Assembly (NCBI GenBank): GCA_017621815.1
Contig: JAGASK010000052.1
Location: forward strand, 1-64,000
From: Lachnospiraceae bacterium
GTDB taxonomy: Bacteria > Bacillota > Clostridia > Lachnospirales > Lachnospiraceae
DNA length: 64,000 nt
Direction: 5' to 3'
The notes beneath the pieces are model-generated. The model had not been told where the DNA came from and searched no databases. It saw only the letters and a list, made by a program, of their open reading frames with translations. Position 1 is the first letter of the stretch. Every line of letters starts with the position of its first letter. Below are positions 43,783-63,890 of this stretch, in pieces. The translations under genes and the position numbers were made by a program.

Positions 43783-44514
43783 CTATAAATTCATAAATTT
43801 ATCATATTCATTCAATACAGCTTCCGTTTCCCCAAGCTGTATTAATTTCCCGTCATTTATCCACAAAACCCTGTTGCAGAATTGCTTCAGCGTATCCGTT
43901 GCATGAGAAACAATCAAGACCGTTCTTTGTGCCCCGGTCATTAAATCTGTCATTTTTTTGTAACTCTTTTTACGAAAATGTTCATCTCCTACACTCAGCA
44001 CTTCATCTACAAGCATAATATCAGTATCCAATATTGCTGTTACTGCAAAAGAAAGTTTGGAATACATACCGCTTGAGTAGGTTCTTACAGGACGGTCGAT
44101 AAAATCCCCTAATTCAGAAAATTCAATAATCTCTTCTTCCCGTTCCCTGATATAATCCGGCTTACAGCCAAGCAGCATTCCCGATTTCATAATATTTTCA
44201 CGACCGGTATTATTAGGATTGAACCCGATTCCGATTGCCATCAGGGAAACACGATTTCCTTTTTTATCAATAATACCTTCATCCGGCTGAAAAATACCTG
44301 CAATCGAACGAAGCAGCGTGGATTTTCCGCTGCCGTTCCTTCCTATAATCCCCAGTATTTCTCCCTTATCCACAGTAAAGGATACATCATCCACTGCCCG
44401 GATAATATCTGCCTTCTTCACATCCTTATTTAAAAACATCTGATGAAGAGACATATGCATAAGGTTCTTGTAATCAATACTCACATGTTGTACATCTAAT
44501 GCAATTTTACTCAT
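43783..44514 (-). CDS. Polysaccharide ABC exporter ATPase (Wzt/TagH-like)
   Basis: 243 residues, a complete nucleotide-binding domain: Walker A GIIGRNGSGKSTLLRSIAG, signature YSSGMYSKLSFAV, Walker B DIMLVDEVLSVGD, and switch His in LIVSHATDTL. The N-terminal NKDVKKADIIRAVDDVSF is typical of the Wzt/TagH/RfbE group. It lacks the C-terminal carbohydrate-binding domain found in some Wzt proteins. Its ATG directly abuts the permease stop codon (no gap), so the two are translationally coupled. It powers export of a lipid-linked polymer. Confidence 0.95.
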   Translation of the reverse strand: MSKIALDVQHVSIDYKNLMHMSLHQMFLNKDVKKADIIRAVDDVSFTVDKGEILGIIGRNGSGKSTLLRSIAGIFQPDEGIIDKKGNRVSLMAIGIGFNPNNTGRENIMKSGMLLGCKPDYIREREEEIIEFSELGDFIDRPVRTYSSGMYSKLSFAVTAILDTDIMLVDEVLSVGDEHFRKKSYKKMTDLMTGAQRTVLIVSHATDTLKQFCNRVLWINDGKLIQLGETEAVLNEYDKFMNL

Positions 44515-45843
44515 TTAAACCACCTTTACATATCCATTTTCATTTTTGTAAACCGTATGAACGCCGACACAGCATAATATAACTGAAATCAGGAACCAAA
44601 TAATCAACTGAGGGATATTCGTTATCTTATTGTAAAGCAGGGCATTTCTCATGGAATCAATCAAAATCGCCACCGGATTGCAGTACATCATAATTTCATT
44701 AAAGGGCGAGGATAATGTTGTGCTCATATTGTAAAATACGCCCGACAGATACATTACCATATTCATCAATATAGTTACTGCATATGATAAGTCATCCACA
44801 AAAACTCCAAAATGCAGCAATATCATTCCGCATCCGAATGACAGCAATATCAATATGATATAAACCGGAATGAATAACAATATATTCAGGCTGACATGCA
44901 CCCTGAAAATTACCATCATTACAGCCAAAACAATCATGGAAAACAACAGCTTATAAAAATTCAAAAACATATTTGATAAAAGAATTACAAATTTGGGAAT
45001 ATAAACCTTTGTTACAATATCACGGTTCGACCGTACAAGCTTGACGCTGTAATTAACATTTTTATTAAAGAAAGTCCACATCAGCAAAGCAGAATAAATA
45101 AACAGCGCATAATTTTCAATACTTCTTCCCAAAACCTGCCCAAAAACAATTACATATACCAACATATTGAAAAAAGGCTCCAGAAGCCACCAAAGCCTGT
45201 TCAAATAAGAATTGGCTACCTCTGCTTTCAAATTCGTTTTTGCCGAATAAACAATATAGTATGCATAATTGACAATATCTTTAAAAAATCTTTTCCCTTC
45301 TTCTACCACGCCCTGCCTGTACTTATAGTTTTCCTTCTTTTCAGCTATCACTTTGCCAATCATCAAAACGACCGCCAGAATGACCACCCACACTTCTTCA
45401 AGAAGCAGTCTCTCCTGGAGCATGGATTCAGAGAAGTCTTTGATATTTTCTGCAAATTCCTGATTGCACATAATTCTCAGCTTTTCACCAGTACTTTGAA
45501 TCAACAGACTGTCATCCAGATATTTTATACTGCTGTTTTCATCATCAGCTATAAAATTCCTGAACTGTCCATAAGTCCAACTCTTTACCAGTATCAAATC
45601 ACGACTGTATACCTCTACCTCTTTCAAATCCAACTCATTAAAGGGAAATTCAAAATAAAAGCTGTCCTCATGAGCAATATCATAATTGCTCAAACCAAAA
45701 GCAGTCTTTTCCCCTTCTGCATCCACAAAAGAAATTTTCAGGTTACGGTTGTCAAACTGAAACAGCATAATGAATGCGCTTCCTGCCAAAAACAGAATTA
45801 AAACAAGCATTTTTATATAAAAATATAAATTTCTCTTTTTCAT
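44515..45843 (-). CDS. Polysaccharide ABC exporter permease with extra N-terminal domain
   Basis: 442 residues. The last 250 or so form the ABC-2 permease: LRWWLLEPFFNMLVYVIVFG-like segment (NRLWWLLEPFFNMLVYVIVF), six helices and a short tail, as in Wzm/TagG. Ahead of this is a non-standard part: one helix (about 9-28), an external domain of about 115 residues (IAHEDSFYFEFPFNELDLKE), and a second helix (about 150-168), with the usual amphipathic start near residue 190. The permease is therefore about 185 residues longer than the family norm. The extra domain may bind the exported glycan. Confidence 0.92.
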   Translation of the reverse strand: MKKRNLYFYIKMLVLILFLAGSAFIMLFQFDNRNLKISFVDAEGEKTAFGLSNYDIAHEDSFYFEFPFNELDLKEVEVYSRDLILVKSWTYGQFRNFIADDENSSIKYLDDSLLIQSTGEKLRIMCNQEFAENIKDFSESMLQERLLLEEVWVVILAVVLMIGKVIAEKKENYKYRQGVVEEGKRFFKDIVNYAYYIVYSAKTNLKAEVANSYLNRLWWLLEPFFNMLVYVIVFGQVLGRSIENYALFIYSALLMWTFFNKNVNYSVKLVRSNRDIVTKVYIPKFVILLSNMFLNFYKLLFSMIVLAVMMVIFRVHVSLNILLFIPVYIILILLSFGCGMILLHFGVFVDDLSYAVTILMNMVMYLSGVFYNMSTTLSSPFNEIMMYCNPVAILIDSMRNALLYNKITNIPQLIIWFLISVILCCVGVHTVYKNENGYVKVV

Positions 45844-54914: not shown

Positions 54915-56816
54915 TTATTGCCGTGCAAGCGAAATCCCATTCTCTGATGATAATACCCGATAAACAGCATTCGTTTGCAGTGCTTCCCCGCCTGTATATT
55001 TTTCAAACACTTTGTTAATGTCATCATTTGTGGTAATGACAAATATATAATCATTTTTTGCAATTTCATTTATCGCATCGTTTTCCATTTCTTTTGTTGA
55101 AAAATCATATGTAATTAAGTCGTTATATTTGTAATTGAAATATACTCTCTGCGTATCCAGGAAGTAGTTTACATAATATTGATTTCTGCAATTTTCTTCG
55201 CAAATCAGAAAAACGGATGCATCAGTTTCCGTTCCATTTTCAATTATTTCTGCATATTGCCTCCATTTCGTCATATTATTTCCCAAAATTCTTTGAGGAA
55301 GCAGATATTCAAAGGATTCATGATCCAGCATCAGCACACCGAAAGCTAATGCAACGGCCAAGGATTTATAATTTACATATTGCTTCTTACAACTGTATGC
55401 AAGCCTTACAAGTAAAATCAGCAATATTAAAAACTCGCTGACAACATATGAGGACATATATCGTTCAAAGCTTGCCAACTTTAATGCCTCTCCTTCAGAA
55501 TAACAAAACATATATAAAACAAACATCGTAAATGCATATCCAGCTGTACCACAGATAAAAACGATGGACAACATTAATACATTTTCCTTTTCAAATTTTT
55601 TCTTAAATGCACGCCAAAGAATAAACAAAAAAATGAGCGCAATAAATATGGACGATACATAGGCAATCGAGATAATTCCAGAAAACAAATTTCTTTCACA
55701 AAGAGCTAACACATATGATTTATACACACTGCGCTGTACCTGACTGCCCCCTCCTCTAAATAAAATATTTACAATTTCGCTGAGTTTAATTTTTGAAAAA
55801 CTAAACTGTTGTCCTGTAATATTTAAAGAATCAACATACCTTGTCCAAGATATATAACTTAAAACCGGCATTAGAAATAGAATGCCCATTTTAGTCAATA
55901 CGTATATTTTCTCCTGACCGCGACTATCATTACCATGAGAGTTAGGCCATCTTTTTCTCCAATCTACAAACTGATGCAAAACATAATACAAATACACAAG
56001 CATTACAAATGCTATACCCATCTGTTTTGATATAATAAGAGCTGACAGGCTTAAAACCAAGCCAATGTAATCAAAAAGGTCATAAAACGCGCCTCTGTCT
56101 ATAAGCAAGGATATAGCATATACATATAATATCGGCATAAACATATCATTATAAATAGTCTCAAAAATACCATAAACATCAAAGGTTCCTATAAGCAAAA
56201 TGATTATCACAGACAAACTGACAGCAGATAAAAAATGCTTAAATCCTTTTTTTTCATATTGAAAATCTGCAATCGGAGGAACTATTAGTGAAAGGGTAAA
56301 TATATGCAAAGACATTGTTACTGCCGACTCAGAATAGCCTCCACATAATTTGCACCACAACATTTCAAAGACTGAAACAAAGGGCGGATAATCCTTATGG
56401 ACAAGAAGCCTTGATTCCGGCACAGAATAAAACTGATCAAGACGCAGCATTTCTTTCACCATAACTCCCCAATGAGAAAGTTCATCCCATGTCGAAAAAC
56501 TTCTTCTATAATCTATGATAAAATAAATGAGAAAAACAGCTATAAACGCATATAATCCATAAGAAAAAACCTTTTCCCTGATCATGGAATTTTTCTTTAT
56601 AATAATCCACCATAAACCAGCCCCCCCGCCTGCTGCGCTTCCAATGACCAAAGCTATGTAGCCTATTTTAAAGGAACCAAATATCATTTGAGTAATATAC
56701 AAAATAAAGACCGCCGCCAGCAACGTTACCGGAAGACACTTGCCGAAGCTTCGTTTACCTATTATAACTACGCCTACCGTTAAAAACACAAAGAACAACA
56801 ATGGTATAAATAACAT
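54915..56816 (-). CDS. Polytopic membrane protein, possible GT-C glycosyltransferase
   Basis: 633 residues with ten or more hydrophobic helices and a soluble C-terminal tail of about 120 residues (DASVFLICEENCRNQYYVNY ...). The first large external loop has YRRSFSTWDELSHWGVMVK, an acidic motif in the position where GT-C enzymes keep their catalytic residue, followed by HKDYPPFVSVFEMLW. That pattern suggests a lipid-sugar-dependent transferase acting outside the membrane, but I cannot name a family. GGGAGG lies 6 bases before the ATG. Confidence 0.7.
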   Translation of the reverse strand: MLFIPLLFFVFLTVGVVIIGKRSFGKCLPVTLLAAVFILYITQMIFGSFKIGYIALVIGSAAGGGAGLWWIIIKKNSMIREKVFSYGLYAFIAVFLIYFIIDYRRSFSTWDELSHWGVMVKEMLRLDQFYSVPESRLLVHKDYPPFVSVFEMLWCKLCGGYSESAVTMSLHIFTLSLIVPPIADFQYEKKGFKHFLSAVSLSVIIILLIGTFDVYGIFETIYNDMFMPILYVYAISLLIDRGAFYDLFDYIGLVLSLSALIISKQMGIAFVMLVYLYYVLHQFVDWRKRWPNSHGNDSRGQEKIYVLTKMGILFLMPVLSYISWTRYVDSLNITGQQFSFSKIKLSEIVNILFRGGGSQVQRSVYKSYVLALCERNLFSGIISIAYVSSIFIALIFLFILWRAFKKKFEKENVLMLSIVFICGTAGYAFTMFVLYMFCYSEGEALKLASFERYMSSYVVSEFLILLILLVRLAYSCKKQYVNYKSLAVALAFGVLMLDHESFEYLLPQRILGNNMTKWRQYAEIIENGTETDASVFLICEENCRNQYYVNYFLDTQRVYFNYKYNDLITYDFSTKEMENDAINEIAKNDYIFVITTNDDINKVFEKYTGGEALQTNAVYRVLSSENGISLARQ

Positions 56817-57542: not shown

Positions 57543-58646
57543 TCAGGCATATGTCCATTCCTTTATCATTTGATCTATTGAAATCCAATTCAGTCCGTCA
57601 TTGCCATAGCCACACAACTGGCCGCTGATTTCTTCATCATGATTTCTGACTGCTATAAGTACATTGGCCATTCCATATGACAAAATTTGAGGTTTTTCAA
57701 TTTTTATCCCCCTTAATTCCTGTCCCCATTTTTCTCTGTCATTATCCGCAAAAAACCTCACGTGAATACCTGCCTGCAACAGCACCTGACATAGCCTTTC
57801 TCCCCAAACGCCGGTTCCAAAAATAACAATTCCATCCTTAACATCTTTAAATTTTCTTTCCAAAACGAAATAAAGAGCAAGGGGATTCTCACTTATTGCT
57901 GCAGTAAACTCTGCTGTACGATATTTATTTTCAATCTGCACCAATGCTTTTTCCTTCTCCGGACAATAATCCACATACTTCATCCGAATTATCTTTGCCT
58001 CTTTTGCACATTCTAATGCTTTCTTAGTACTGACTCCTCCATATCTGAAATTCGCTATTATTTCATCAATATATGCAAACTTAACACCCCTGCACAAAAA
58101 ACGCAGAATTAAATCGTGATCTGCCGCTATATTATACTCCGTATTAAATATCCCGTATTTTTCATATACATTTTTTCTTACAAAAACGCTGGGATGAGGT
58201 ATCATCATAGAATACCATAACTGATTTAACGGCTTTTTTATACTGCACCTTCTTGTTCCATTTTCACAAATATTCCATATTTTTCCGTAAACCAATTCTG
58301 CGTCTGAATTCCGAAAACAATTCACTGCCTTTTCAACAGCATCCTCTTCATACCAGTCGTCACTGTTTATAATCCCTATAATATCCCCTGTTGCATGGTA
58401 TATTCCTTTGTTCATTGCATCATATATACCATTATCCGGTTCACTTACATAATAATCTATCGACTCCTTATACTTTTCAATAATATCACACGTACTATCT
58501 GTAGACTTTCCATCTATCATGATATATTCAATATTATCATAGGTCTGATTCACTACACTGCATATTGTTTGTTCTATTGTGGCAGCAGCATTATATGATA
58601 CCGTAATAATGCTAACCTTTATGTTCTCTCCCGACACATCCTTCAC
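57543..58646 (-). CDS. Family 2 glycosyltransferase with C-terminal Rossmann module
   Basis: 367 residues, a paralogue of the 50670-51797 product. GT2: VSIITVSYNAAATIEQTICS, IDGKSTDSTCDII, GIINSDDWYEEDAVEKAVN. Rossmann-like module: IVIFGTGVWGERLCQVLL, FFADNDREKWGQELRG, NVLIAVRNHDEEI. The reading frame begins at a GTG (58646) that is very close to AGGAG; a GTG three codons later would be better spaced, so the start is uncertain by a few residues. Two nearly alike GT2-module proteins about 6.9 kb apart point to duplication within the locus. Confidence 0.87.
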   Translation of the reverse strand: MKDVSGENIKVSIITVSYNAAATIEQTICSVVNQTYDNIEYIMIDGKSTDSTCDIIEKYKESIDYYVSEPDNGIYDAMNKGIYHATGDIIGIINSDDWYEEDAVEKAVNCFRNSDAELVYGKIWNICENGTRRCSIKKPLNQLWYSMMIPHPSVFVRKNVYEKYGIFNTEYNIAADHDLILRFLCRGVKFAYIDEIIANFRYGGVSTKKALECAKEAKIIRMKYVDYCPEKEKALVQIENKYRTAEFTAAISENPLALYFVLERKFKDVKDGIVIFGTGVWGERLCQVLLQAGIHVRFFADNDREKWGQELRGIKIEKPQILSYGMANVLIAVRNHDEEISGQLCGYGNDGLNWISIDQMIKEWTYA

Positions 58647-58656
58647 TCTCCTGCAG

Positions 58657-59916
58657 TTAATTCTGTATATTGATAATGTTGAATAATCTTCTTCTTTTCA
58701 GTTCCTCAATAATATCCGATTTATTTTCCCTGGATTTAACGCCCAGTACAATCGCTGCATATTTATGATTTGCTTCCAATTCCTCAATTTCATATACAGG
58801 CAGACCATTAATGGAAACAGTGTTGGAATGCTTCTTAGTGACAGCTACTGCATTAACCAAAATTCCTTCTCTATTTAGACATTCAATCACATCAACCGCA
58901 TAATTGCCTGCGCCATATACAATAATCTCACTTGCGCTACGAAGCTTTATTAAATCATCTGTTTTCAGCCTCAAAGCTTCATTTATGTCCGCATTCACCA
59001 ATAATCTGCAGTATAAATGACATTCTGACCCTGATTCAAAATCCTTTTCTGAAAGAAATTTTTTATTCCTAGCATAAAGCCTTCTTGCCTGTTTCAGACG
59101 CATGCACATATACTTATCAAAATACCCATTTACTTCCTCAGAAAATTTACTTTGATTCCAAAATTCAAGCAGCCTACAATATATCTTAAACATAGCGATT
59201 GCTTTTTGAGGTGAAACATTGGTAGACATTGTTCCTCCATGTCTCCTGTAAATATGGTATTCCTTATCAATACACATACACCTTTTAGCAGAAAGCATTG
59301 CCCGTACTGAAAATTCTGCATCCTCTCCTAATAGCCCATCTGAAAATTTAATATCGTAATCCGTCAGAAACCTACGGCGCCAAAATTGCCTGCAGACAGA
59401 ACCCGTATATGCGTTATTTTCCATCAAAATACTGAACATTTCTGTACCGCTTAATATTTTCCCTTCAAGATCAGGCAATTCAAAGTGCAACCGCAAATTG
59501 CCAATATGTTCTTCATCCTGCAGTTCACTGTTAAAATAGATACAGTCTGTTTCGTTTTCATCCGCATATTTAATCAACTCCGTAAATATCTGTGGCTTTA
59601 TTAAATCATCAGCATCCAAAAAATATACATATTTCCCCCTCGCTATTTCCAATCCCCTGTTTCTGGCATATGCAGTACCTTTATTTCCAACATTGCTAAT
59701 AAGCCTAATGCGATTGTCCTTATTGCAATACTTTTTAATAATATCCGATGTTCCATCTGCCGAACCATCTTCCACACATATAATTTCTATATTATATACC
59801 GGCTGTTGAAATACACTGTCCAAACAACTGCTTATATATTTCTCAACATTATAAGCCGGAATAATAACTGAAACAACAGGTTTATACTCATTTTTTTCCA
59901 TTTTTATTTCCATCAC
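58657..59916 (-). CDS. Family 2 glycosyltransferase with C-terminal Rossmann module
   Basis: 419 residues. GT2: VSVIIPAYNVEKYISSCLDS, VEDGSADGTSDII, FLDADDLIKPQIFTEL. The C-terminal third has SEIIVYGAGNYAVDVIECLN, INGLPVYEIEELEANHKYAA and IVLGVKSRENKSDIIEEL, the Rossmann-like module seen in several neighbours. No clear Shine-Dalgarno precedes the start at 59916 (GTG, then ATG at the next codon). It follows the split acetyltransferase gene by 22 bases. Confidence 0.87.
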   Translation of the reverse strand: MMEIKMEKNEYKPVVSVIIPAYNVEKYISSCLDSVFQQPVYNIEIICVEDGSADGTSDIIKKYCNKDNRIRLISNVGNKGTAYARNRGLEIARGKYVYFLDADDLIKPQIFTELIKYADENETDCIYFNSELQDEEHIGNLRLHFELPDLEGKILSGTEMFSILMENNAYTGSVCRQFWRRRFLTDYDIKFSDGLLGEDAEFSVRAMLSAKRCMCIDKEYHIYRRHGGTMSTNVSPQKAIAMFKIYCRLLEFWNQSKFSEEVNGYFDKYMCMRLKQARRLYARNKKFLSEKDFESGSECHLYCRLLVNADINEALRLKTDDLIKLRSASEIIVYGAGNYAVDVIECLNREGILVNAVAVTKKHSNTVSINGLPVYEIEELEANHKYAAIVLGVKSRENKSDIIEELKRRRLFNIINIQN

Positions 59917-59938: not shown

Positions 59939-61067
59939 TTATTCTTTCTGATTCACATCTTCCGAAAGCCTTATATTCTCCTCACCGCAGCTGCAAATAT
60001 CCTCGGCCTGATCAGCTCTGGTCCATGCTACATTCTTCCTTTTTATTATGGCAGGACTTCCGAACAGCAAAACATTATTTGGTGTTCTGCACTTTACAAA
60101 ACTGCATGCCCCTACAATGCTTCCATTTCCCAAATTTGTATTATACATAATTGTGCTTCTCATGCCAATCCAGACATGGTTTCCTATTTTAACTTCTAAG
60201 CCTTCATCTTTCCTTTTCCTGAAATTAATATTCTTCTTTGATTCAACATCAAAAATTGAATGCCCATCGTTTGTCCGCAGATGAATATCATTTGCAAACA
60301 TACAGTCTTTACCTATCTCACACCTGGTATCTGCCCCCATCGCAAAAAAACAATTCATACCCACAGTACTTCCTGATCCTATCCGAAAACTGCTGTTTCT
60401 GCGCAGTATCAATTTTATGCCAGTTGCAAAATGACAGCCAGTTCCCAAATCAGCAATGCTGTTCCCTTCCACTGTAAAATTCGCTTTCCTGACGGATACT
60501 TTCTCACCCATTTCTATCTTTGCCTCATCACCAAGAGAAAAATGACAGTCAATAACCTCTGCCTCAGCACCGATGTTTATTACTGAATTATTATGCATAT
60601 AGATGAGCGTATCCTCAATATAAGCCTTATTATCTATTTTAATTATTGCATTCCAACCCAGAAAATAAAATTTTAACCCTTTATAAAATCCATATATTCT
60701 ATTTCCGTGGGCATCCTCAAAATATTCGTCATCTTTTTTAACAGTACAATCACAAAAGCAATAATAATCCCTAACAGGCGTATACCCCCCCCCCACGCAA
60801 TTTATCGGCTTTTTTATCGTTATTACAATCCATAGGAATCACTATATAATATTCATTGGATTTATCATCCACCTCATTAAGCGCTCTGACCGCCCTCCCC
60901 GCAATATTATCTGCCTTTTCCTCTATAAAGAACTCCGTAGTTAAATTATATGATTTTCTCAATACCGCAGCAATGCCTTTAGATGCTGAACTATAACCCC
61001 ATATAACAATTTTTCTATTGCGATAATTTTGAAATACGTTTTCTGCTACATCATCAATCCAGTTCAT
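59939..61067 (-). pseudogene. PglD-like Rossmann/hexapeptide acetyltransferase, frameshifted at poly-G (probably phase-variable)
   Basis: Two overlapping frames make one gene. The first (61067 to 60771) starts MNWIDDVAENVF with GGAGG before the ATG and encodes the Rossmann-like module (KIVIWGYSSASKGIAAVL, NEYYIVIPMDCN). It then runs into a ten-G tract and stops after GGGVYAC (98 residues). The second frame (to 59939) begins in the tract with GGGYTPVRDYYCFC and encodes a left-handed beta-helix acetyltransferase (FRIGSGSTVGMNCFFAMGAD, KIGNHVWIGMRSTIMYN, LLFGSPAIIKRKNVAW). With nine G the two join as one 375-residue protein. As written, the acetyltransferase is off unless slippage or reinitiation occurs. 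A sequencing error in the homopolymer is the alternative. Confidence 0.85.
60785..60794 (-). repeat. Poly-G(10) tract, putative phase-variation switch
   Basis: Ten consecutive G on the coding strand (C on the plus strand) interrupt the acetyltransferase gene. Ten gives a stop 13 bases after the tract; nine (or six, or twelve) gives a full-length protein. Long G tracts inside surface-modification genes are the classical form of slipped-strand contingency loci, and this is the longest G/C homopolymer I noticed in a window where A/T runs are common. Confidence 0.9.
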
Positions 61068-61089
61068 ATTCCCTCCACGATTTTGAGCT

Positions 61090-62577
61090 TTATTCTGCAT
61101 GAATCGCTTTATAAATATCCAATCTGTTCTTTTCAGAAATCTCAAGTAATTTTTTGGACATTTCCTTCTGTTTCCACTCAATGTCCGCAGAATCTATTAT
61201 CTTCGCAAATACTTCTAAAATATTGCTGCAGATTTCATTTGTATTTTCCCTGAGATTTACATAGCACTCCTCCATATTTACATCTTCCAAGAACCACTTC
61301 ATCTTATTATGCGTTCCCAAGGTAATAATCTTTCTTCCAAGACCATAAGGAATCATTTGCGCATGTCCACGCATCCCAATGGTACATTCGGTTTTCTGAT
61401 AAAAACTATATATCTGTTTAGGTAAACACTGTGTAAAATTCTTTACTTTATATTTTACTTGTTCTCTGTCCAGATATAGCAAAAACTGCAAGTCTGCATC
61501 ACAATGCGCAACATAAACAATGTGAAATCCTTTCTTTGAAATCTCAGATATTGCTTTGGCAACACTAGTAAGTATATTCTCTTTGCATAAACCAAAGCGG
61601 CTTTCAGAACGATCGAATGCCATATTGACTGCTATAATACGTTTCTTTTTAGTTTTAAAGCATTTTTCAGTTGGCACAAATTGCTTTGCTAATACTGTAG
61701 TACAGGGCTGATAGCATATTTTATCTCGTAAATCCTCATTAAGCAGCCCTTTTACAGCTTCGATACTTCCATAATTTCTTAATCCGATAAAAATCGCTTT
61801 CCTGGTTATTGCGTTCAATGAATGAATAAATAATTCTGTGTTTTTCTGCCCTATAAAGTAATTATAACCTACGGAATAAATAATAATGGGAATATGAATT
61901 TTTTCCAGCAATTCTTCAGAAATTGCCCACTGCCAGCCGCTTATTTTATTCTTATTAGTATCTGGCAGGAAAAGCCCACCTCCGCCGATAACAAGTACAT
62001 CTGTCTGATTAATCTGATTTATCAAATCCAGTGTAACTTTTTCCCTGATGTCTATAATATTCCATTTATGAAACGCAAGATATTTTCTGACACACCAAGA
62101 CAAATATGTGTCACCTGCATTTTGAGCTACACAATAAGTAATATGAGTTGCATATATTTCTTTTCTATTTTTACTATGGGTTTTCTTCTCTAAGTTTTTA
62201 TATATAACATTTCTTAACTTTCGCATCTTTAATGCAAGTTCACTTTTTTTATAACTTTCCGCATACAGCTTTCTTGCATCCATATAATTCTTAATTTTCA
62301 GATTTTTTACAATTTCCCGGATTTCTGTAGCGTACTTATCACTGACAGCTAAAAGAAAAATAGTATTTTTGTAAAAATCCTGTACTTCATATACAGGTTT
62401 TACTTCGATTCCATTAATGAAATAAGGTTTAAACTCTTTTTCGCTTTTAACAAAGTATTTTACCCTGTTTTCGATTTTTAAATCTCCCAGGAACTGCAAT
62501 GTTCGTTTTCCTATCTCGCCCGCTCCATAAATTATAACACTTTCAAAATTCATAACTTTTTTGATATATTTGTCCAC
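61090..62577 (-). CDS. Polysaccharide pyruvyl transferase with N-terminal Rossmann module
   Basis: 495 residues. Residues 1-110 are the Rossmann-like module (SVIIYGAGEIGKRTLQFL, KYFVKSEKEFKPYFINGI, FLLAVSDKYATEIREI). Residues about 140-480 match the polysaccharide pyruvyl transferase family: YCVAQNAGDTYLSWCVRKYL, TDVLVIGGGGLFLPDTNK and ECTIGMRGHAQMIPYGLGRK. It is the second pyruvyl-transferase-family gene in the locus. The start is a GTG at 62577 with a GGGGG sequence about 9 bases ahead; an ATG at 62553 lacks any Shine-Dalgarno. A possible promoter lies upstream. Confidence 0.87.
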   Translation of the reverse strand: MDKYIKKVMNFESVIIYGAGEIGKRTLQFLGDLKIENRVKYFVKSEKEFKPYFINGIEVKPVYEVQDFYKNTIFLLAVSDKYATEIREIVKNLKIKNYMDARKLYAESYKKSELALKMRKLRNVIYKNLEKKTHSKNRKEIYATHITYCVAQNAGDTYLSWCVRKYLAFHKWNIIDIREKVTLDLINQINQTDVLVIGGGGLFLPDTNKNKISGWQWAISEELLEKIHIPIIIYSVGYNYFIGQKNTELFIHSLNAITRKAIFIGLRNYGSIEAVKGLLNEDLRDKICYQPCTTVLAKQFVPTEKCFKTKKKRIIAVNMAFDRSESRFGLCKENILTSVAKAISEISKKGFHIVYVAHCDADLQFLLYLDREQVKYKVKNFTQCLPKQIYSFYQKTECTIGMRGHAQMIPYGLGRKIITLGTHNKMKWFLEDVNMEECYVNLRENTNEICSNILEVFAKIIDSADIEWKQKEMSKKLLEISEKNRLDIYKAIHAE

Positions 62578-62717: not shown

Positions 62718-63890
62718 TCATATATTAACTGCATTCTTTTGTTTTAATATAATATCAATAATTTCTCTCACCGCGCCCTGTCCCCCCTCTTTTTGAGTGA
62801 CATACGTAGCTGCTTCTTTTACTATCTGCACTCCATTTTTAACGCTGCACCCGAATCCTACTGATTTAATTACATCTAAATCATTGATATCATCGCCAAC
62901 ATATGCTACATTCTGTAACTCTATTTTATATCTCTCACATAACTTTTTAACTACGCTTAATTTATCTTGTATACCTTCTTCAAAAATATCAAGATTCAAC
63001 TTTTTGCATCTGCGACGATTTAACTCTCTTTTTTCCCCCGTTATTATACCGGTCAGAATTCCTTTATTTTTAAGCATTGACAATCCCATACCATCCAATG
63101 TGCTAAATTTCTTCAACTCATCCCCATTTTCAGAATAATACATTCCGCCATCTGTCAAACAACCATCACAATCCGTAAGAAACATCTTAATCTCAGGAAT
63201 CTCTTTCTTTATTCTTTCCTTCTGTATTCTGTTTTCTAATTGCTTTTCTATTACTATCCAGTCACTTGGCTCATCTATTTCAAAATAAGTGGACTCATCC
63301 ATTTCGTATGCACGGATGTTGCCTGATATCCTGTTTTGAGTTGAAACAAGAGCAGTTTTGCTCGTAATATAAAAAGCTCCGTTTTCTACCAAATATCCTT
63401 CAAATTCCTGTCTCCTTGGTCTGTGAAAGACATCGTAATTAGTCGGCCTTGCAAATCCATTTTTATCTTCTTTCCAATGAAATCTCTTCTGTCTTACAAC
63501 CGAAAGCACACTATCTGTTTCTTCTTTTCTGTATAATTCAAAGCCTCCTGTCAAATCATCAGATGTCAATAAAGGAGATGTCGCCTGAATCAATACTATA
63601 TTTTCAAATAAATATTTATCTGCAAATTCCAGCATAGCGGATTCTGTAGAAGCAGTATCAGAGGCCGTTGCTTGCCCCCTCTCTACAACCATTACTTTGG
63701 GCAAATTAAAACTTTCCACTGTTTTTCTAATAATATCATTGTCTGTTGCCACATATACATTGTCTATATCTCTACAATCGCTTGCTGCTTTTGCTACCCA
63801 ATAAACCAGTGGTTTACCAGCTATTTCTTTAATATTCTTTAATGGAATAGACTTACTTCCTCCACGCACCGGAATAAATGCTACATTCAC
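62718..63890 (-). CDS. CMP-nonulosonate synthetase fused to KdsC-like phosphatase
   Basis: 390 residues. The N-terminal half is an N-acylneuraminate cytidylyltransferase: VAFIPVRGGSKSIPLKNIKE, VYVATDNDIIRK, IVLIQATSPLLTSDDL, and EIDEPSDWIVIEK. The C-terminal half (about 235-390) is a KdsC-type HAD phosphatase: IKMFLTDCDGCLTDGGMYYS (DxD), FSTLDGMGLSMLKNKGI, and VAYVGDDINDLDVIKSVGFG. Together they would dephosphorylate a nonulosonate-9-phosphate and load it onto CMP. Which nine-carbon sugar (sialic, legionaminic or other) cannot be told. The start is a GTG with AGAGG 8 bases upstream. It lies 11 bases after the preceding gene and so belongs to a longer operon beyond the window. Confidence 0.92.
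   Translation of the reverse strand: MNVAFIPVRGGSKSIPLKNIKEIAGKPLVYWVAKAASDCRDIDNVYVATDNDIIRKTVESFNLPKVMVVERGQATASDTASTESAMLEFADKYLFENIVLIQATSPLLTSDDLTGGFELYRKEETDSVLSVVRQKRFHWKEDKNGFARPTNYDVFHRPRRQEFEGYLVENGAFYITSKTALVSTQNRISGNIRAYEMDESTYFEIDEPSDWIVIEKQLENRIQKERIKKEIPEIKMFLTDCDGCLTDGGMYYSENGDELKKFSTLDGMGLSMLKNKGILTGIITGEKRELNRRRCKKLNLDIFEEGIQDKLSVVKKLCERYKIELQNVAYVGDDINDLDVIKSVGFGCSVKNGVQIVKEAATYVTQKEGGQGAVREIIDIILKQKNAVNI

Follow-up and report, generated by a model that had tools for sequence, protein, structure and literature searches.

A run of ten G in a putative acetyltransferase gene raises the question of whether the gene is simply broken or is switched on and off at random. Random on/off switches based on G runs are best known from pathogens. 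The genome considered here comes from the gut Clostridia, in a genus of 37 genomes that includes Parablautia intestinalis (Lachnospiraceae). The window, which is the whole stretch of 64,000 nucleotides that was analysed, had been read in the first-pass annotation as holding a slipped-strand ON/OFF switch of a PglD-like enzyme.

The split acetyltransferase gene

The tract is a run of ten C on the plus strand at 60785-60794, which gives ten G on the coding minus strand, and the two frames of the gene overlap there. Starting from the ATG at 61067, the upstream frame ends with the residues ...KADKLRGGGVYAC, followed by TAG. A stop 13 bases past the tract had been described earlier; the stop is present, and it occupies bases 12-14 after the ten G. 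The downstream frame comprises 281 open codons, ends at 59939 and contains no other stop. The joined length of 375 residues, proposed for a tract of nine G, agrees arithmetically with these coordinates. The features of the gene and its surroundings are the following.

60785..60794, minus strand: ten-G tract, proposed slippage site; L125 has nine G at these codons and stays in frame
61072..61076, minus strand: GGAGG ribosome-binding site preceding the ATG at 61067, read from the sequence
60771..61067, minus strand: upstream frame, Rossmann-like half, stopping at TAG 60773-60771 just past the tract (orthologue match)
59939..60784, minus strand: downstream frame, hexapeptide (left-handed beta helix) acetyltransferase half (Hexapep, orthologue and PDB matches)
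57543..59916, minus strand: two family-2 glycosyltransferases downstream of the acetyltransferase (PF00535)
61090..62577, minus strand: polysaccharide pyruvyl transferase family protein (PF04230)
62718..63890, minus strand: cytidylyltransferase fused to a KDN-9-phosphatase/KdsC-like phosphatase (PF02348, HAD, TIGR03584, NF058599, TIGR01670)
43783..45843, minus strand: ABC exporter, ATPase at 43783-44514 and membrane part at 44515-45843 (PF00005, PF01061)

Both halves are parts of one protein. In tblastn comparisons, five continuous orthologue frames from four genomes (L124 with two tandem copies, L126, L127 and L128) matched both halves, each half in another frame, and the change of frame was at or close to the tract in all five. 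Residues 14-105 of L126, for example, matched 61064-60786, and residues 104-454 matched 60790-59942. When the halves were compared separately with a single 379-aa protein of P. intestinalis D8-82, the upstream one matched residues 30-107 and the downstream one residues 118-377. The claim that the ten-G run parts one gene into two frames was borne out by the five continuous orthologues. Translation of the downstream half from a start of its own, GTG at 60796, was considered unlikely, as a Shine-Dalgarno-like sequence was not seen ahead of it.

The downstream half was identified as a hexapeptide-repeat acyltransferase (Pfam PF00132, Hexapep, 38.4 bits versus a cutoff of 27), and the upstream frame gave no Pfam or NCBIfam match. 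By sequence, the nearest solved structures were the polysialic acid O-acetyltransferases 3jqy (4.9e-23) and 2wlc (2.2e-17), with maltose O-acetyltransferases ranking next. The label "PglD-like" can be kept at most for the predicted domain order: the downstream half and the full-length orthologue L124 reached 38.4 and 43.4 bits with the NeuD/PglB model TIGR03570, far below its cutoff of 160.8, and membership of the NeuD/PglD-type N-acetyltransferases was therefore rejected. That domain order, a Rossmann-like domain ahead of the hexapeptide domain, comes from a predicted model of the P. intestinalis orthologue (mean pLDDT 61, pTM 0.49, six sequences), which was relied on solely for its well-scored N-terminal domain (pLDDT 73-92). 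Weak fold matches to the model include VioB, WeeI, PglB and PerB, none of the 292 having E ≤ 0.001. The tract site corresponds to residues 119-122 of this orthologue, between helix 111-119 and strand 128-130, the last helix and last strand of the N-terminal alpha/beta domain, so that the break falls inside the predicted Rossmann module, as had been proposed.

The surrounding genes point to a glycan locus. Two genes upstream of the acetyltransferase lies the nonulosonic-acid cytidylyltransferase-like gene; its fused product scored above the cutoff of TIGR01670 and below those of TIGR03584 and NF058599, and is likely to act in nonulosonic-acid activation. Judged from its relatives and its neighbours, the acetyltransferase probably O-acetylates a sugar of the surface glycan made by the locus, and a nonulosonic acid is perhaps the acceptor, which is a reasonable guess. 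Glycosyltransferases are numerous in the locus, and LicD and MptE-like proteins were found outside the window. Since MptE-like proteins presumably include the Maf flagellin-glycosylation factors, flagellin and a cell-wall glycan are both possible targets. By eye, several of the glycosyltransferases between 48254 and 59916 carry towards the C-terminus a Rossmann-like stretch (a strand, then GxGxxG) that is of the same general type as the acetyltransferase's upstream half. A run of seven C at 56621-56627, hence of seven G in the coding sense, lies early in a 633-aa ORF (54915-56816) and was noted as a possible young tract.

A comparison of G length among orthologues had been suggested as a check. 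At the same codons, L125 (DKYC01000151.1, MAG UBA7110, Lachnospiraceae) has ACC, nine G and TAT and is in frame; this sequence starts just 45 bases ahead of the tract, and the upstream half is outside it. The window and UBA7110 differ by four bases ahead of the shared TAT, as would result from an additional codon (three bases) and a single additional G. The tract length thus differs between orthologues with a matching frame, ten G being broken in the window and nine open in UBA7110. Their downstream halves are about 41% identical, with a dN/dS of 0.25 at a saturated dS of 2.2. UBA7110, a distant relative, is the only orthologue with the tract: at eight other sites, in seven genomes, the longest G run was four, and the P. 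intestinalis orthologue reads AGCTGGGGATAT there. The contrary case that had been named, ten G fixed in all relatives together with decay downstream, was absent; the relatives carry nine G or at most four, and the downstream half retains 26 of the 30 positions invariant in six relatives.

Long G runs in the genus and their placement

The source genome (3.50 Mb, 52 contigs, 91.55% complete) contains two runs of at least nine G, versus about 1.8 expected from base composition under a GC of 0.38 and independent bases; for runs of at least ten G the expectation is 0.35. Eight-G matches in the window numbered 3, versus 1.63 expected from a dinucleotide shuffle of the window. Since chance alone would give about as many long G runs in this genome, their number was rejected as evidence. 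The count proves nothing alone, and the unusual part is the placement of the runs.

Of the 37 genomes of the genus, 30 contain runs of at least nine G. If run frequency fell off steadily with length, far fewer such runs would be left than were counted in 32 of the genomes, namely at least 103, against 95 of exactly eight G. At least 103 distinct tracts were obtained from 25 genomes, and 93 of these, together with five from other genomes, made up the 98 tracts analysed with their flanks. Ten tracts were left out (G029 C200; G034 C58; G060 C157 and C186; G027 C22; G012 C85; G022 C11; G002 C11; G001 C21 and C55). A tract was counted as in-gene when the G lay on the sense strand and was flanked in both directions by at least 100 open codons. 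By this measure, the frame was broken at 18 of 29 in-gene tracts and continuous at the remaining 11, versus breaks at 5 of 104 runs of five to eight G (Fisher p = 9e-11) and at 5 of 97 A/T runs of seven or eight (p = 2e-10). With a threshold of 60 codons, 28 of 44 long runs were broken versus 10 of 166 runs of five to eight G. Open frames were taken from stop to stop, and a few of the "broken" cases may therefore be two neighbouring genes; the short-run loci were sequences fetched for other reasons and are no random sample. Of A/T runs of at least nine in genes there was a single one at 60 codons (unbroken), too few for a control. On the sense strand, G tracts outnumbered C tracts by 29 to 4. 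Frame breaks are tied to long G runs genus-wide, and the tract of the window, rather than standing alone, is one of a genus-wide set of candidates, with the slipped-strand reading itself supported.

In a family census, a run of at least nine G was found in 124 of 200 Lachnospiraceae genomes, high counts being unreliable. About 150 bases rich in poly-G at G208:C19:67251-67404 account for most of the count of that genome and are most likely a sequencing artefact. Three tract-rich genomes of other genera supplied 17 distinct tracts; many of these sit close to contig ends or do not lie in coding sequence, so that generality beyond the genus is only likely. Some tracts adjoin contig ends or scaffold gaps (L044, L091, L113 and UBA7110), which indicates that they are hard to assemble. 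The UBA7110 genome also has two ten-G tracts about 270 bases apart (G358:C38; L283 1501-1510 and 1771-1780), flanking a stretch of N.

At least 58 open codons were present on both sides of 53 tracts, and 42 of the genes concerned were scanned with Pfam (left out were L096, L109, L093, L053, the C-sense tract of L042, L100, L049, L055, L123, L120 and L114). In 10 broken genes, a profile was cut in its middle within about 15 residues of the tract. Profiles started late in the aminotransferase L066 (from 154/361), TylF L047 (from 75/264), Acyl_transf_3 L080 (from 46/326), the methyltransferase L085 (from 23/95), GH3 L056 (from 115/316) and AAA_21 L076 (from 238/304). They ended early in MBOAT L108 (to 281/337), Acyl_transf_3 L122 (to 217/326) and L086 (to 260/326), and the methyltransferase L073 (to 123/164). 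Methyltransferase families accounted for 10 of the 42 genes (L115 below cutoff only, L084 also a glycosyltransferase) and O-acyltransferase families for 8 (three MBOAT, four Acyl_transf_3 and the Hexapep of the window). Five more carried capsule or membrane families, one Caps_synth, two DUF6056 and two DUF2142, of which we take the two DUF families to belong to glycan assembly. The remainder were one aminotransferase, three AraC regulators, seven genes of single other families and eight without a family. Any enrichment is an impression, since some of the 42 are mutually orthologous and there is no control set. A nine-G run at L042:2608-2616 leaves the frame intact in a gene that weakly matches C-5 DNA methylases (22 bits, at the cutoff); a switch in such a gene could alter many others. 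In a lipoprotein gene (DUF3502), ten G at L083:2001-2010 break the frame right after a lipobox-like Cys.

A different placement was observed for the second G run of the source genome (G000:C31:2101-2109; L001 1501-1509; L209 2101-2109), in which nine G lie in a promoter spacer. The promoter has perfect hexamers, TTGACA and TATAAT, separated by 10 bases and the nine G (spacer 19), and it precedes a secreted protein with SLH domains (S-layer-domain protein). The same contig also encodes a paralogue, whose promoter reads TTGACA...GGGAGGGG...TATAAT, with a spacer of 18 and the run interrupted. The strict pattern with perfect TATAAT was found at a single site in the genus, the one on C31 (1 of 37 genomes), and its reversed control also at one, in G001; a scan of the flanks added four sites with one mismatch. 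In total, 5 of 40 non-coding tracts lie in a spacer whose two hexamers together deviate from the consensus at no more than one position (C31, L059, L062, L101 and L112). From a background of 0.0005 per random position and 0.0017 per nearby position, about 0.02 to 0.07 would be expected among 40. By eye, the protein that follows has a signal or lipoprotein N-terminus in four of the five cases. The spacer runs at L059:1501-1509 and L062:1501-1509 stand ahead of lipoproteins that resemble the one of L083 in look.

Orthologues in different states and the origin of the break

Orthologue pairs in different states were found for several tract genes. An FkbM-type methyltransferase is broken with ten G in G009 (IMSAGC_005) and open with nine in G014, the proteins being 84-87% identical; because a base next to the tract differs as well, length alone does not account for the change of state. 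An AraC regulator is broken with ten C in G029 and open with nine in G028 (85-86% identity, one gap in 300 bases). Downstream of the break, the coding sequence is conserved, with a dN/dS of 0.17 for the FkbM gene (dS 0.49) and 0.04 for the AraC gene (dS 2.5, saturated); a row for the window and L005 was discarded for its wrong frame. An MBOAT gene has eleven G and is broken in G010, and has nine and is open in G019, at a Trp-Gly-Gly motif; the corresponding sequence of other members is TGGGGAGG or close to it, and no G run there exceeds six. Long runs seem to have been seeded at conserved Trp-Gly and Gly codons such as this MBOAT site. A gene that had no Pfam or NCBIfam match is open with ten G in G009 (L092:2001-2010) and broken with eleven in G208 (L263:1501-1511), from another genus of the family; apart from the tract, the alignment is free of gaps for about 250 bases in both directions, and two three-base gaps lie farther upstream. 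One Acyl_transf_3 pair, L048 open and L086 broken, has nine G in both. Different states were also seen in records not marked as MAGs, P. intestinalis D8-82 and IMSAGC_005.

These observations are best accommodated by slipped-strand mispairing, which during replication would add or remove a G in the run. Some tract lengths would yield a complete acetyltransferase (ON); with others, as here, translation would end just past the tract and the product would have no catalytic domain (OFF). A population would then be a mixture of acetylated and non-acetylated cells, and the acetyltransferase tract would be one of a set of poly-G switches of the genus, in glycan-modifying genes and in promoter spacers. 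A fixed pseudogene, in which a one-off slip at a chance G run led to loss of the gene in this lineage without switching back, appears unlikely. It would agree with the 0.35 runs of at least ten G expected by chance in the genome, with the lack of the tract in most orthologues and with no reversion having been seen, but UBA7110 carries the tract in frame, the downstream half has kept 26 of 30 invariant positions without acquiring another stop, and the same pattern recurs in many genes of the genus.

Still less credence is given to an assembly or sequencing error, by which the true tract would be in frame and the tenth G an artefact. Poly-G is error-prone, a relative (G208) has the artefact of about 150 bases described above, and some tracts are found at contig ends or beside N gaps. 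However, A/T runs of eight in genes were broken in 0 of 16 cases at 100 codons and in 1 of 31 at 60 codons (16/16 and 30/31 unbroken), G runs of six to eight in genes were unbroken in 15 of 15, and different states occur in the non-MAG records D8-82 and IMSAGC_005; even if the error were real here, a nine-G tract would stay a candidate switch. The least probable explanation is programmed decoding, in which slippage of RNA polymerase or of the ribosome on the G run would join the frames with no change in the DNA. Slippage on long homopolymers is known, and the two frames do overlap at the tract, yet a programmed site needs neither orthologue tracts of different length (9/10, 9/11 and 10/11) nor the in-frame state of 11 of 29 in-gene tracts, and tracts in promoter spacers cannot act through decoding. 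Slipped-strand ON/OFF switching of a surface-glycan O-acetyltransferase, OFF in this assembly, is therefore considered highly probable, supported by the nine G of UBA7110, the genus-wide frame breaks and the orthologue pairs that differ in length and state. From these we infer replication slippage, reversibility within a strain and O-acetylation of the glycan of the locus.

Relation to known switches and biological meaning

The proposed switches resemble several known systems. In Neisseria switches of the porA/opc type, a homopolymer lies in the promoter spacer, as does the C31 run between -35 and -10; the latter is known from sequence alone and stands ahead of an SLH-domain protein. The acetyltransferase shares the hexapeptide O-acetyltransferase family with NeuO, the polysialic acid O-acetyltransferase of Escherichia coli K1, which we take to be the protein of structure 3jqy. 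NeuO switches through a heptanucleotide repeat at the 5' end of its gene, whereas here the G run is inside an added N-terminal Rossmann-like domain and the substrate is a guess. The neuO gene is called a contingency locus in a title cited in PMC9558356.

A close parallel is with the poly-G contingency genes for surface glycans of Campylobacter jejuni, such as cgtB, whose switching is established (PMC6437147): a tract of about nine G lies in a glycan gene, one G sets the frame, and a surface sugar is turned ON or OFF. Mixtures of lengths and phenotypes have been shown in C. jejuni (PMC6437147), while the candidate switches of the Gram-positive Clostridia genus described here are known from sequence comparison only. 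In the gut commensal Bifidobacterium breve, an intragenic G tract likewise acts as a switch, with several lengths in one population (PMC9187656); it concerns sortase-pilus genes of an actinobacterium, in contrast to glycan enzymes and many loci in Lachnospiraceae. Phase variation in Clostridia is represented by the invertible promoters of Clostridioides difficile, which use site-specific recombination instead of the slippage proposed here (2025 review, PMC11868660). Poly(A)/poly(T) tracts were the emphasis of a survey that covered 81 bacterial genomes (PMC2831843). Among the matches listed in the open PMC literature, no report of poly-G phase variation in Lachnospiraceae was found. The type of switch is already known; its Clostridia host and the multi-locus set are without a report in the literature searched.

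It seems rather likely that the genus containing Parablautia, and probably further Lachnospiraceae, possesses a multi-locus poly-G phasome in which G tracts switch independently and would make each commensal population a combinatorial mixture of surface types, as in Campylobacter, though here in commensals among the Clostridia. Its putative members, on the same reading, are O-acyltransferase, methyltransferase and glycan-assembly genes, AraC regulators, a DNA-methylase-like gene and promoters of surface proteins. The titles of the non-MAG records suggest cultured strains (D8-82 and IMSAGC_005), and with simple sequencing of the tracts switching is directly testable. If the proposal is true, strain-level gut metagenomics misses a fast layer of surface variation with possible consequences for phages, antibodies and colonisation, and some of the sequences in these genomes that look like pseudogenes would be genes that are switched off.
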